Shown: piece by piece, positions 56,757 to 61,679 of the stretch
Layout of the letters: each line of letters begins with the position of its first letter
How positions within the stretch are numbered: the stretch's first letter is position 1
Assembly (NCBI GenBank): GCA_003605085.1
Contig: QZKD01000038.1
Span: 1-64,000 of the forward strand
DNA: 64,000 nt
Source: Acholeplasma sp.
GTDB taxonomy: Bacteria > Bacillota_I > Bacilli_A > Acholeplasmatales > Acholeplasmataceae
Reading direction: 5' to 3'
Position numbers and translations under genes: made by a program
Notes under the pieces: model-generated
The model's database searches: none
Told to the model about the DNA's origin: nothing
The model's input: only the letters and a program-made list of their open reading frames with translations

Positions 56757-56785
56757 TTGACAATGCAAGAATTCAAAGGTATAAT
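56757..56785 (+). promoter_or_regulatory. Promoter of the c-di-GMP riboswitch/matrix cassette
   Basis: Consensus TTGACA and TATAAT with a 17-nt spacer, 50 bases before the aptamer core. Confidence 0.85.
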
Positions 56786-56827
56786 GATAGGGAAAATAAG
56801 GAAAATATCCTGTTTTCTAAATTATTT

Positions 56828-56904
56828 AGTATGTTAAAGGCAAAACTAGGGTAACCTAGTGACGCAAAGCTATAGGGCCCTACGGGGTAGCCAGTTGTCA
56901 TATG
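56828..56904 (+). promoter_or_regulatory. Class I cyclic-di-GMP riboswitch (GEMM-I)
   Basis: The aptamer core is AAAGGCAAAACTAGG, a GTAA tetraloop (P2, ACTAGG/CCTAGT), GTGACGCAAAGCTATAGG, a second hairpin closing as GGGTAGCCAGTTGTC, that is, the GEMM-I order with its conserved GGCAAA, GACGCAAAGC and GTAGCCAG strings. P1 is closed by AGTATG/CATAT. The 3' side CCAGTTGTCA can also pair with TGACAATTGG (56941-56950). Confidence 0.93.
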
Positions 56905-56940
56905 AAACCGTCTATTTTTAAGTAGACTGGGATTCTGCGT

Positions 56941-57004
56941 TGACAATTGGTATTTTTTGTAAAAAAACCAAGTCATCGTGAAATTCCGCGATGATTTATT
57001 TTTT
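56941..57004 (+). terminator. Expression platform: antiterminator partner and terminator
   Basis: TGACAATTGG (56941-56950) can pair with the aptamer 3' strand; TTGGT/ACCAA and then CATCG/CGATG (56974-56993) plus T-rich tail (56995-57004) form the terminator. The next ribosome site is at 57011. Whether c-di-GMP turns expression on or off cannot be read with certainty. Confidence 0.65.
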
Positions 57005-57024
57005 ACCGAAGGGAGAGGAGATCC

Positions 57025-57612
57025 TTGAACACTGGTAAAAAGATTGTTCCAATTGCGATTATCATCATGTTAGTGGTCGCATTAGGCTTTACTTCAACTG
57101 CAGCTTTTGCGTATTGGCAAGACGTCAGTAGAGTCGGGAACGTCGTTATCAGATTTGATGGTGAAGATGCCAACTTAATCGTACAAGAGGTTTCGAGTCC
57201 ATTTTCGGGAAGGTTAGTCCCTGAAGGTTACGTCTACTTTGAAAATGATGTAGATCAGGTCACGTTTGAATACGATGTCAGCATCGATCAAACACTCGTT
57301 CAGACGATGAATCTGAATGTCGAAACACTCAATATTAAAATTGGTGACTCAGATGAATATGCACATCTTGTGGATATTCAAGTGGGACCAGCAAAGGGCA
57401 GCTTTGAGTACGAAATCTTCAACAGCGTTGTCACTGTCACCATTGTAATTAGACTGATTGAACCGATTGATGCGGTTGAAGCAGCCGAAAAGGGATTTGA
57501 TCCCAGTTTAGTCAATGTTGATGACTCTGAAGCAGCATATGAGATCATCAAAGGCGAAACAATAACATTTGATATATTGTTTAGCGTGACACCTAGAGTA
57601 ACAACTGAGTAG
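57025..57612 (+). CDS. TasA/CalY-like secreted protein 1
   Basis: 195 residues from a TTG (57025) supported by AGGAG 4 nt upstream. The signal segment VPIAIIIMLVVALGFTSTAAFAYWQD is of the SipW type: hydrophobic, Ala-rich, ending AFAYW before the mature beta-rich protein. The mature domain (FDGEDANLIVQEVSS, GYVYFENDVDQVTFEYDVSIDQTL, TITFDILFSVT) has the alternating strands of TasA/camelysin-like jelly-roll proteins. The expected role is an extracellular fibre or matrix component released by a SipW-like peptidase encoded downstream. Directly downstream of the c-di-GMP riboswitch. Confidence 0.8.
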   Translation: MNTGKKIVPIAIIIMLVVALGFTSTAAFAYWQDVSRVGNVVIRFDGEDANLIVQEVSSPFSGRLVPEGYVYFENDVDQVTFEYDVSIDQTLVQTMNLNVETLNIKIGDSDEYAHLVDIQVGPAKGSFEYEIFNSVVTVTIVIRLIEPIDAVEAAEKGFDPSLVNVDDSEAAYEIIKGETITFDILFSVTPRVTTE

Positions 57613-57666
57613 TATTAAGAAAAAATAAAAATAAAAAATAGAAAAAGGAAATTTAAGGAGAAAATT

Positions 57667-58236
57667 ATGAAAAAGAGAAGTTTATTAATCGTTATGTTAG
57701 TTATGTTAGCATTGGTGACCTCAGGGTTTACATATGCATTCTGGGCAGCTTCTGTTACTGGAAATAATGATACAGCAGTTGGTTCAGTGGAAATCGGTCA
57801 AGGTTCTGCAGTTACAACGACTGTACTAGTAGGTGATGAAACAAGTGCTGGATTATTAGTTCCAACAGGATATCAAAATGGTACTACTACATTTAATCAA
57901 ATTACATTAACATTTGATGTTGATTGGACAGCGGATGCTAGTGGCGCTGCAGGTACAACAGGTACTTTAGTTGTTGATGTTGTTGAAACAAGTTTTGATA
58001 TTTTAGATGATTTGGATGTAACAACAGGATTAACTGATGTTCAAATTGACGCAATGTTCGATGTTGTTGTAACATCTGGGAATAATGCATCTATGACTAT
58101 TGGTGGATCACAAGCGGTTGTAATTACCATCACTTTTGCAAATGAACCAGCCTCTTCAGCTATTTATGATGCAGTTGCTAATGGAACATTCGTATTTGAT
58201 GTTACATTTACTTTAGGTTCTATCGTATTGCCATAG
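57667..58236 (+). CDS. TasA/CalY-like secreted protein 2
   Basis: 189 residues. N-terminal KKRSLLIVMLVMLALVTSGFTYAFWA is again a SipW-type signal (TYAFWAASVTG). The mature part is very rich in Thr, Val, Gly and Ala (VEIGQGSAVTTTVLVGDE, TGTLVVDVVE) with few charges; beta-sandwich expected. It has the highest A+T third positions of the cassette, unlike its neighbours. The gene follows the first by 54 bases with a good AAGGAG site. A short hairpin follows it. Confidence 0.8.
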   Translation: MKKRSLLIVMLVMLALVTSGFTYAFWAASVTGNNDTAVGSVEIGQGSAVTTTVLVGDETSAGLLVPTGYQNGTTTFNQITLTFDVDWTADASGAAGTTGTLVVDVVETSFDILDDLDVTTGLTDVQIDAMFDVVVTSGNNASMTIGGSQAVVITITFANEPASSAIYDAVANGTFVFDVTFTLGSIVLP

Positions 58237-58260
58237 TAGCATCTTTTTAATGACATATGA

Positions 58261-58286
58261 AAAGGCAGCCCGATAGAGCTGCCTTT
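58261..58286 (+). terminator. Probable terminator after fibre gene 2
   Basis: AAAGGCAGC / GCTGCCTTT stem with an eight-base loop; T-tail is weak (ATATTTG). Confidence 0.6.
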
Positions 58287-58427
58287 ATATTTGATTAAAT
58301 CAAGTGATATTATTAAAGCCATCAACGTAACTGTATCAATTCAGTTATCGTTAAACTTATAACGTTAGTTGAAATGCAATAAAAAACCAAAAACAAAAGA
58401 AACATACACAAATTATTGATTTTATGG

Positions 58428-58433
58428 TATAAT
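58428..58433 (+). promoter_or_regulatory. -10 element of the signal peptidase unit
   Basis: Perfect TATAAT 42 bases before the SipW gene start; -35 weak (TACACA at 17 nt). Confidence 0.5.
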
Positions 58434-58474
58434 TTCCTCGATATACACATCAATTCTCGAGGGGAATGATAATC

Positions 58475-59041
58475 ATGGAGTCCAAAACAAAACATATTGC
58501 CAAACAAATAGGATCAATTATCTTTTATTTAATTTCTGGATTATTGATTCTCTATATTTTGCTGGAATTATTTATTCCTGATATGACGATCAAAGTCTTT
58601 CAATTCAAACCCTTTGTCGTCATCACCGAAAGTATGGAACCCGTGATCAACGTAGATGACATGGTCATTGTCTATAATCCAAATGTTGATGAACTCGAAG
58701 TAGGAGATATCATCACTTTTCGAGCAGACATCAACTATGATGGCACAAAAGAAATCATCACACACTATATTTATTCCATAACTGAAAATACCGAAGGTGA
58801 ATTAGTCTTTAGAACCAATCGCTATGGCAGCGATGTAGCTGACACTTGGATTTTACAAGAAGGCGATGTCATTGGTGTTTATGGATTTAAGATTCCTCAA
58901 CTCGGTGTCTTTGTCAACTTTTTGAAGAGCCCATTTGGTATCGCAGCAATCGCGGTTAACGTCATTGTGATCGGTGCCATCGTGTATATCGTCAAATCAG
59001 GAAAGAAAGAAGCGGTCCAGCAAGAGAATAAGGAAGCTTAG
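58475..59041 (+). CDS. SipW-type signal peptidase I (copy 1)
   Basis: 188 residues from the ATG at 58475 (GAGGGG upstream). One N-terminal helix (IIFYLISGLLILYILLELF), then the ER-type peptidase motifs: catalytic Ser in ITESMEPVI, His in ITHYIYS (in place of the Lys of ordinary Lep enzymes), Asp/Gly in EGDVIGVY, and a C-terminal helix. SipW removes signal peptides of TasA-like proteins. Encoded after two such substrates. Confidence 0.88.
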   Translation: MESKTKHIAKQIGSIIFYLISGLLILYILLELFIPDMTIKVFQFKPFVVITESMEPVINVDDMVIVYNPNVDELEVGDIITFRADINYDGTKEIITHYIYSITENTEGELVFRTNRYGSDVADTWILQEGDVIGVYGFKIPQLGVFVNFLKSPFGIAAIAVNVIVIGAIVYIVKSGKKEAVQQENKEA

Positions 59042-59052
59042 GACGTGATCGC

Positions 59053-59670
59053 ATGCAAGATTTTTTGACAACTGAAGAACTGATTCATCGACTCAAACTT
59101 CAAGATACAGTTGTCACTGCTGTCGATGAAGTCAAAAAATCATTAAGTCGGAAAGAAAAGGTAAAGAAAACCTTTAAGACATTTTTCTGGGTAGCTGTTG
59201 TCCTCGCCATTCTTCACACCATTTATAGTATTATACCTATGGTGGTTGAACATCGCGCGATTGACCTATATGGTGGAAATCGGATTTTAGCGATCCCCAA
59301 TACTCAAGAACTTGATGAAGAATTACTAGGTGAAGTCATTTACGCAAAAAAATTCAAATTCGATGACATCGAAATTGGTGATCGCATCGTGATATATGGA
59401 AAATTTGGTTCTGATCGCTATTGGGTTGAACAAGTGGTTTCTATTGATGAATCAAGAAGAGAAATAGATACAACCTTTGGGTATTATATCCAAAACACAT
59501 ATAACGAAGCAGAAGTCATCGCCACATATGTTCGAAAAGCATCTCTACTAGGTACGGTGTATTATGTAGCATCAACACCCAGAGGATTTGTTTCATTACT
59601 TGCTATACAAGGTATCATACTGACCTTGATCTACTACTATTATATTCGTAAACAAGAAGACAAAAAGTGA
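59053..59670 (+). CDS. Signal-peptidase-like membrane protein without catalytic Ser
   Basis: 205 residues. A membrane helix (about 43-66) and a second at the end flank a domain that follows the SipW pattern: RILAIPNTQELDEELLGEVIYAKKFKFDDIEIGDRIVIYG, KASLLGTVYYVASTPRGFVSLLAI. Where SipW has ESMEPVI there is no Ser-Met-Glu-Pro, and the THY motif is also missing. So it is likely an inactive relative (pseudoenzyme). It lies between two intact copies and may act as partner, adaptor or regulator. The N-terminal 40 residues are charged and specific. Confidence 0.7.
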   Translation: MQDFLTTEELIHRLKLQDTVVTAVDEVKKSLSRKEKVKKTFKTFFWVAVVLAILHTIYSIIPMVVEHRAIDLYGGNRILAIPNTQELDEELLGEVIYAKKFKFDDIEIGDRIVIYGKFGSDRYWVEQVVSIDESRREIDTTFGYYIQNTYNEAEVIATYVRKASLLGTVYYVASTPRGFVSLLAIQGIILTLIYYYYIRKQEDKK

Positions 59671-59697
59671 ACCTTTTCTCAGTGAAAGGTTCTTTTA
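59669..59697 (+). terminator. Hairpin after the pseudo-signal-peptidase gene
   Basis: GAACCTTT / AAAGGTTC stem and TTTTATT; overlaps the stop codon. It may reduce expression of the third peptidase gene. Confidence 0.6.
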
Positions 59698-59713
59698 TTA
59701 GGAGTCTATGAAG

Positions 59714-60313
59714 ATGAAAAAAACTCTTAAAATCATCGGTAATGTTCTATTTTATTCCATTTCGGGTCTTCTTTTTATCTCGATTCTTTTAGAATTATTT
59801 GCTCCCGATAAAACGATTGATATCATAGGATTTAAGGGCTTTGTTGTTGTTTCAGGAAGCATGGAACCGGTGATTAATGTCAATGATTTAGTCATTGTCA
59901 CTAAAACAAAAGCATCTACGCTAGAGCCAGGAGATATAATAAGTTTTTATGCATATTTACCTACAATTCTTGAAGATGACCAAGGCAATACGATCTATGA
60001 AAAAAATGTGGTCACTCATTATCTAGGAGAACTTATTACCAGTGGTGAAGAAACAATCATTAGGACATATGGAACTGCAAATGCACCAGGAGAGTTTGAT
60101 CAATGGAATGACATCAATGGAGAACCTACTGATCTCACCACAAATGATATATTAGGGAAAGTTACATTAACGATTCCCAAAGTAGGTTTTATTGTCTTAT
60201 TCGCTATGATTCTCGTTCAAAATCCTGTTTTCTTAGCACTTGTAGTGACGAATATTATCATCATTGTCATTTTGATTAAAGTCATTAGAAAACCCAAGGG
60301 GAAAAACATATGA
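59714..60313 (+). CDS. SipW-type signal peptidase I (copy 2)
   Basis: 199 residues from the ATG at 59714, 9 nt after GGAG; an ATG at 59708 is the alternative. One N-terminal helix (NVLFYSISGLLFISILLELF) and the SipW motifs VVSGSMEPVINVND (Ser), VVTHYLGEL (His), NDILGKVTLTIPKVGF, with a C-terminal helix. Both catalytic sites are intact. Longer substrate-side loop than copy 1. Overlaps ung by four bases. Confidence 0.87.
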   Translation: MKKTLKIIGNVLFYSISGLLFISILLELFAPDKTIDIIGFKGFVVVSGSMEPVINVNDLVIVTKTKASTLEPGDIISFYAYLPTILEDDQGNTIYEKNVVTHYLGELITSGEETIIRTYGTANAPGEFDQWNDINGEPTDLTTNDILGKVTLTIPKVGFIVLFAMILVQNPVFLALVVTNIIIIVILIKVIRKPKGKNI

Positions 60314-61009: not shown

Positions 61010-61016
61010 ACACTTG

Positions 61017-61144
61017 CAGAGTAATTAGAAAGCGTAAAGTGTCTAACCATGGGATGACGGGTTAGAACGAACACGTACGTGGCGGTTTTCTAATGCGTCC
61101 GCTGTAAGCAATTATAGTGGACCTCATGACAGGAGGTCTTTTTT
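61017..61144 (+). promoter_or_regulatory. Tetrahydrofolate riboswitch of folT with terminator
   Basis: Strings match the THF aptamer in order: CAGAGTA, GCGTAAAGTGT, GGGATGACGG, AACGAA, GGCGGTT, AATGCGTCCGCTG. The 3' strand GTCCGCT can also pair with AGTGGAC (antiterminator). The terminator GACCTC-ATGACA-GGAGGTC plus TTTTTT includes the folT ribosome site, so the ligand can act on transcription or translation. Confidence 0.9.
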
Positions 61145-61145
61145 C

Positions 61146-61679
61146 ATGAAAACATATTCACCGCTTCAAAAAGTCGTTTTTGCAACATCTCTTGCTGCTG
61201 TGAGTGTCGCGATTGATGTCTTCTTCAAGTTTGTGTTGAACATTCAGTTTTTTGGTCTCCCCTTTTATGCGATCCCAGTGATCCTAGGAGGTATCATTTT
61301 AGGTCCTGGTTACGGTGCTGCCATTGGCTTTGTCGCGGATGCAATTGGACTTTTTATGAGCGGTGGAACGTATATGCCTCTTTACGCCTTAGGACCTGTG
61401 ATTTGGGGATTTCTTCCAGGTTTGATCCTTTACAAACGTTATTCAGCATTTAAACTTGCTTGGGTAGTCCCGCTTACATATCTCTTTGTGAATTTAAATA
61501 ATACACTTGCTTCCTTTGTTTACTTTGGCAGTGAAACAACCCTTAGTTTACTCGTGCTTCGAATGGCCTTAATTCCTTTTAATTCACTGATTATCTTCTA
61601 TGTTGTTAAAGATGTCCATGTGAAATTAGCACCTTTCTATGAAAGGTTTACTTGGTTGAAGGGTGAAGCAAAGGCGTAA
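61146..61679 (+). CDS. folT: Folate ECF transporter substrate-binding (S) component
   Basis: 177 residues with about five to six helices: VVFATSLAAVSVAIDVFFKF, FYAIPVILGGIILGPGYGAAIGFVADAIG (the ECF-S family motif), MPLYALGPVIWGFLPG, LTYLFVNLNNTLAS, MALIPFNSLIIFYVV. Together with a shared EcfAA'T module it imports folates; control by a THF riboswitch supports the substrate. Confidence 0.92.
   Translation: MKTYSPLQKVVFATSLAAVSVAIDVFFKFVLNIQFFGLPFYAIPVILGGIILGPGYGAAIGFVADAIGLFMSGGTYMPLYALGPVIWGFLPGLILYKRYSAFKLAWVVPLTYLFVNLNNTLASFVYFGSETTLSLLVLRMALIPFNSLIIFYVVKDVHVKLAPFYERFTWLKGEAKA

Follow-up and report, generated by a model that had tools for sequence, protein, structure and literature searches.

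The cassette at positions 56757-60313 (+ strand) of the window, the stretch of 64,000 nucleotides of Acholeplasma DNA analysed here, contains a promoter, a c-di-GMP-I aptamer, two terminator hairpins, two secreted-protein genes and three S26-type genes. Its leader is probably a transcriptional ON riboswitch for c-di-GMP, and the two genes under its control would encode secreted fibre or adhesin subunits of the donor-strand type. The original prediction, which had placed a c-di-GMP riboswitch before a fibre cassette in a mollicute-like organism, gave the correct coordinates for the cassette, and the host is an Acholeplasmataceae MAG with a completeness of 85%. The predicted mollicute host is supported. 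No match to a PBP transpeptidase is found in this 85% complete genome, which fits a wall-less cell.

The promoter (56757-56785, + strand) is of the sigma-70 type and is as perfect as had been predicted, with TTGACA and TATAAT separated by 17 nucleotides and all 12 of the 12 consensus positions matched. It is kept in the orthologous loci, being present in 16 of the 17 orthologous leaders with a spacer of 17 nt (13 leaders) or 16 nt (3 leaders). With such a strong promoter, the leader would be made constantly. The GEMM-I aptamer claimed by the original prediction is located at 56829-56902 (+ strand), and the covariance-model search proposed for it gives a match to Rfam RF01051 with 60.9 bits (gathering score 35; E value 1.8e-9; model positions 1-87 of 87 covered). 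In the orthologous loci, the aptamer is detected by Rfam in 16 of the 17 scanned and by sequence in L064, and the leader of L058 starts one and then runs into Ns.

The RF01051 alignment places a G at model position 11 of the window aptamer, which we take to be the site of ligand contact in class I, where c-di-GMP and cGAMP aptamers differ. GEMM-I variants with A instead of the ligand-contacting G exist, and the aptamers of two relatives (L109 and L146) have A at this position and are possibly cGAMP-type variants. It is nevertheless very improbable that the window aptamer binds 3',3'-cGAMP rather than c-di-GMP, because the window aptamer has G at this position, as have those of nearly all relatives. 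In addition, the search of the genome for GGDEF and EAL proteins, which the original prediction had also proposed, gives 12 GGDEF and 4 EAL matches.

Two terminator hairpins follow, and both of them recur in 18 orthologous leaders. Terminator 1 (56890-56951, + strand) belongs to the minimum-energy fold of the leader, and its duplex is present in 18 of the 18 leaders. Its 5' arm, GCCAGUUGUCA (56890-56900), is also the P3/ligand/P1 strand of the aptamer, that is, its last, 3' strand; its 3' arm, UGACAAUUGGU (56941-56951), is followed by U6 at 56953-56958. The arms are fully paired, with one G-U among the pairs. Terminator 2 (56970-57005, + strand) consists of a stem at 56970-56997 and a U-rich tail, both of which are present in 18/18 leaders, although the tail is weak in leader L067. 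In the predicted antiterminator (56936-56977 with approximate limits, + strand), the 3' arm of terminator 1 and the U-tract are paired with AAAAAAACCAAGUCA, which is located before and inside the 5' arm of terminator 2. Thus, the antiterminator partner and the terminator that had been proposed are both present, but the terminators are two rather than one.

The antiterminator was analysed at 18 loci by swapping the partners between loci and comparing the pairing energies in 10,000 permutations. The mean pairing energy is -16.2 kcal/mol for the own partners as compared with -12.3 kcal/mol for the swapped partners, and 0 of the 10,000 permutations is as extreme (p about 1e-4). The outcome is the same when only 11 divergent representatives are used (p = 5e-5). 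Judged from this co-variation of sequences, the antiterminator pairing is under selection. The aptamer and the expression platform are mutually exclusive by folds, leader duplexes and partner swapping, as in an RF01051-type riboswitch.

A two-terminator ON switch is predicted, because the pairing between the arms of terminators 1 and 2 co-varies across the 18 loci. Folding of the aptamer should rule out terminator 1, because the 3' strand of the aptamer itself serves as the 5' arm of this terminator. The elements are linked in series, from the aptamer through terminator 1 and the antiterminator to terminator 2, so that an aptamer held by its ligand should yield read-through. Without ligand, terminator 1 would arise by pairing of the aptamer's 3' arm with the arm downstream, terminator 2 would serve as a second barrier, and ORF1 and ORF2 would be off. 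With c-di-GMP, the aptamer would keep its 3' arm, and the freed arm of terminator 1 would pair with the 5' arm of terminator 2, so that both terminators would be lost and ORF1-ORF2 would be transcribed, along with the gene for a chitin-binding protein in many relatives. When the aptamer stretch is kept out of folding, terminator 2 remains the minimum-energy state in most leaders. Antitermination would therefore have to be kinetic, taking place before the 3' arm of terminator 2 exists. Class I switches act both ways in other bacteria (PMC6366702), and the two-terminator switch Bc1 is locked off in vivo (PMC11218506), so that the leader might instead be an OFF switch or an inactive relic, with c-di-GMP lowering expression or no longer affecting it. 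This alternative is quite unlikely, because the folded aptamer precludes terminator 1, the partner swapping points to selection on the antiterminator pairing, and the aptamer is kept even at loci whose proteins share only 47-51% identity.

The proposed ON switch resembles two characterised riboswitches in part. The c-di-GMP-I riboswitch Bc2 of Bacillus thuringiensis, which is located before cap, a gene for a collagen adhesion protein, is turned ON by read-through (PMC6366702). It shares with the switch proposed here the class I aptamer, the ON direction by transcription read-through and, as target, a surface adhesin, but this target is a single gene without a SipW-type secreted subunit, in a walled host. 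In the c-di-GMP-I riboswitch Bc1 of the Bacillus cereus group, a class I aptamer is likewise joined to one platform that contains two intrinsic terminators, but Bc1 controls mcpE, and the dual-terminator Bc1 of B. thuringiensis is unresponsive to c-di-GMP in vivo (PMC11218506).

The two genes behind the leader encode secreted beta-rich proteins of 195 aa (ORF1; 57025-57612, + strand; TTG start after GGAGAGGAG) and 189 aa (ORF2; 57667-58236, + strand), which are homologous to each other (hhalign 98.7%). Their N-termini consist of a short positively charged stretch and a hydrophobic segment, followed by FAYW in ORF1 and YAFW in ORF2, so that the SipW-type signal segments expected for both proteins are present. 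In the rest of the 64-kb window, only one ORF passes the same signal filter, and this ORF is unrelated; none passes it in four control regions from relatives. This result indicates that the SipW-type signals at the cassette represent more than chance.

A relationship of these proteins to TasA is weakly suggested at the level of the fold, which in TasA/CalY proteins is a jellyroll beta-sandwich. AlphaFold2 models of ORF1 and ORF2, built from 18-row alignments, are mostly beta with moderate pLDDT values of 68 and 72, and contain behind the signal a low-confidence N-terminal segment, as a donor strand would give. When 350,542 PDB chains are searched with these models, the TasA fibre 8aur ranks first for ORF1 (probability 0.57, TM 0.23) and TasA 5of1 ranks third for ORF2 (probability 0.96, TM 0.40), with E > 0.001 for every match, TM-scores of 0.2-0.4 and moderate model confidence. 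Sequence searches of solved structures with the secreted proteins find nothing, and PF12389 (TasA/CalY) has no match in ORF1 or ORF2 or anywhere in the window's genome. When the two proteins are aligned by hhalign with a TasA profile built from class-wide PF12389 matches, only the signal segment is aligned. Thus, the proposed membership in the TasA/CalY family receives a weak suggestion from the fold and none from PF12389 or from hhalign beyond the signal. The context of TasA/CalY-type proteins, a SipW-type signal and a neighbouring gene for a SipW-type peptidase, is present. The models make it plausible that ORF1 and ORF2 work like TasA, but that they are TasA is not supported at the sequence level.

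The weak similarity to TasA would also suit proteins that form a surface coat or serve as monomeric adhesins or lipoprotein-like antigens, with real riboswitch control and no fibres, and these genomes also encode other SipW-type proteins of very large size (2244 aa and more). Such a role is nonetheless unlikely, in view of the small size, mutual homology and beta-rich composition of ORF1 and ORF2, their donor-strand-like N-terminal segment, and the rank of TasA, first or near first, in both fold searches. Under the fibre or adhesin reading, the mature proteins would assemble on the wall-less cell and mediate attachment to surfaces or chitin.

The cassette is comparable in layout to tapA-sipW-tasA of Bacillus subtilis, sipW-tasA/calY of B. 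cereus and sipW-bsaA of Clostridium perfringens, which also combine beta-sandwich-like subunits and SipW-type signals with adjoining genes for SipW-type peptidases, although no sequence homology of the window proteins to these systems is detected. The TasA/CalY systems are controlled by the SinR/SlrR proteins or by temperature rather than by an aptamer (PMC9674648, PMC13082335, PMC7395162), whereas the cassette has an aptamer, two peptidases and a pseudo-peptidase.

The first S26 signal peptidase of the cassette (58475-59041, + strand) is of the SipW/archaeal type; it matches TIGR02228 with an E value of 2e-19 and 70 bits, over the cut-off of 51.85, and has Ser-Met (ESMEP), whereas the His/Lys region that is usual in such enzymes is replaced by THY. 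The second (59714-60313, + strand), of the same type, has Ser-Met in GSMEP and matches TIGR02228 slightly under this cut-off (E 4e-13, 49.4 bits). Both match the SipW model NF046067, an equivalog of B. subtilis SipW, far below its cut-off. The S26 homologue between these two active-looking peptidases (59053-59670, + strand) lacks the catalytic Ser-Met, because PNTQEL replaces the SMEP of the other two. This pseudo-peptidase is kept in the cassettes of relatives. The SipW-like peptidases that had been predicted are supported, and the pseudo-peptidase had been missed.

A terminator-like hairpin behind ORF2 (58261-58286, + strand) is detected by a sequence scan of the window, and the first peptidase gene has an extended -10 promoter of its own, TACACA-17-TATAAT with TG (58405-58433, + strand), which is kept across loci; TG-TATAAT precedes this gene in 12 of 14 loci, including that of Peloplasma. 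The peptidases are probably outside the control of the aptamer, because the hairpin follows ORF2 in the window and the promoter stands before the first peptidase gene in most orthologous loci. The peptidases had initially been considered as part of the switched operon, and this was dropped once their own conserved promoter was found; contrary to what the original prediction implied, the riboswitch does not appear to govern the whole cassette. The most economical reading of these sequence features is that the aptamer governs ORF1-ORF2(-ORF3) and that the peptidases are made independently and would cut off the signal segments.

A search with ORF1 finds 18 named genomes, uncultured or cultured, mostly with Acholeplasmataceae or Tenericutes titles and a few with broader or other titles (Bacillota; one Erysipelotrichaceae). 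The closest match, with 96% identity, is from an uncultured Acholeplasma. Cultured carriers are Peloplasma aerotolerans M4Ah, whose description mentions neither biofilm nor fibres, and Tenericutes bacterium MO-XQ, which is also in the ORF1 set. The aptamer precedes SipW-type secreted proteins at 18/18 orthologous loci, one of which is cut by Ns. The order GAPDH, fibre cassette, uracil-DNA glycosylase and THF riboswitch is kept among relatives; in the window, the THF riboswitch (61015-61106, 69.6 bits) is followed by a folate-transporter-like gene at 61146-61679.

Relatives have a third gene behind ORF2, and CBM5/12 modules are found in 11 of the 11 third genes scanned, so that the target may be chitin or a polymer like it. 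This gene is absent from the window, and no CBM5/12 is found in the window's genome (85% complete); a chitin role was therefore rejected as a claim for this organism. Among known switches, the c-di-GMP-I element Vc1 of Vibrio cholerae turns ON gbpA, which encodes a chitin-binding colonisation factor (PMC4744006). Its target recalls the CBM5/12 gene that many related cassettes contain, but Vc1 has no terminator, the protein families are different, and the window has no CBM gene.

The link between aptamer and SipW-type genes is an order-wide arrangement, which the original prediction had missed. All five aptamers of the window's genome (5/5) stand before SipW-type genes; the other four form two tandem pairs on contig C22, both followed by more SipW-type genes and by S26 peptidases. 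Directly upstream of the first pair are two GGDEF-EAL genes. The aptamer is present in 70 of 120 relatives. The aptamer sites fetched from relatives number 76, and 72 with at least 1.7 kb downstream were counted as clusters. A SipW-type ORF lies within 5 kb of the aptamer in 63 of these 72 clusters, and a SipW-type ORF or an S26 gene in 66/72; the four control regions contain no SipW-type ORF. Among the exceptions, two aptamers stand before GGDEF genes, another precedes an ORF1-like ORF of lipoprotein size, and a further one precedes a Wzz-like gene. Tandem aptamers are present in 13 of 75 clusters of the order. Outside the order, SipW-type genes are located behind the aptamer in 7 of 24 new class-wide loci (L177-L200, picked by aptamer score), among which L194 has three tandem aptamers and clear orthologues of ORF1-ORF2. 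The aptamer is found in 0 of 18 relatives without GGDEF and in 70 of 102 with GGDEF (Fisher p = 1.7e-8, uncorrected for kinship, the relatives not being phylogenetically independent).

Published precedents exist for class I switches that turn ON adhesin genes, for a class I platform with two terminators and for ON control of a chitin-binding protein. A literature search, which covered few subscription journals so that an earlier report is possible, finds neither a TasA/SipW-like system nor a mollicute for which a c-di-GMP riboswitch is described. It is possible, although somewhat doubtful, that SipW-type TasA-like fibre systems are regulated throughout the order by dedicated c-di-GMP-I ON riboswitches, in many cases with chitin-binding parts and tandem aptamers, and that wall-less free-living cells switch to attachment to surfaces or chitin by RNA antitermination alone. 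If the proposed control is true, mollicutes, which are better known for reduced genomes and lost signalling, would have a working c-di-GMP output, the messenger would be tied straight to a TasA/SipW-like secretion system without a protein regulator, and it would be explained in a tractable way that a dozen or more GGDEF proteins are retained by free-living Acholeplasmataceae, whereas the reduced relatives lose GGDEF as well as the aptamer. Each step is open to testing, because the cultured P. aerotolerans has the same cassette.

Several other arrangements of the aptamer are observed. The two tandem pairs on contig C22 (L006, 1700-11300) have a terminator of their own for each aptamer, and the first cassette there also encodes a DUF2357 protein together with an AAA_5 ATPase, which is an unusual combination in a surface system. 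Triple tandem aptamers precede one cassette at L098, L099, L103, L106 and L194. At L117 and L126, the aptamer is located immediately before a GGDEF gene, where feedback on the messenger is possible. At L182, L186 and L200, which belong to other families of the class, a c-di-GMP-I aptamer precedes two consecutive MreB-like genes.
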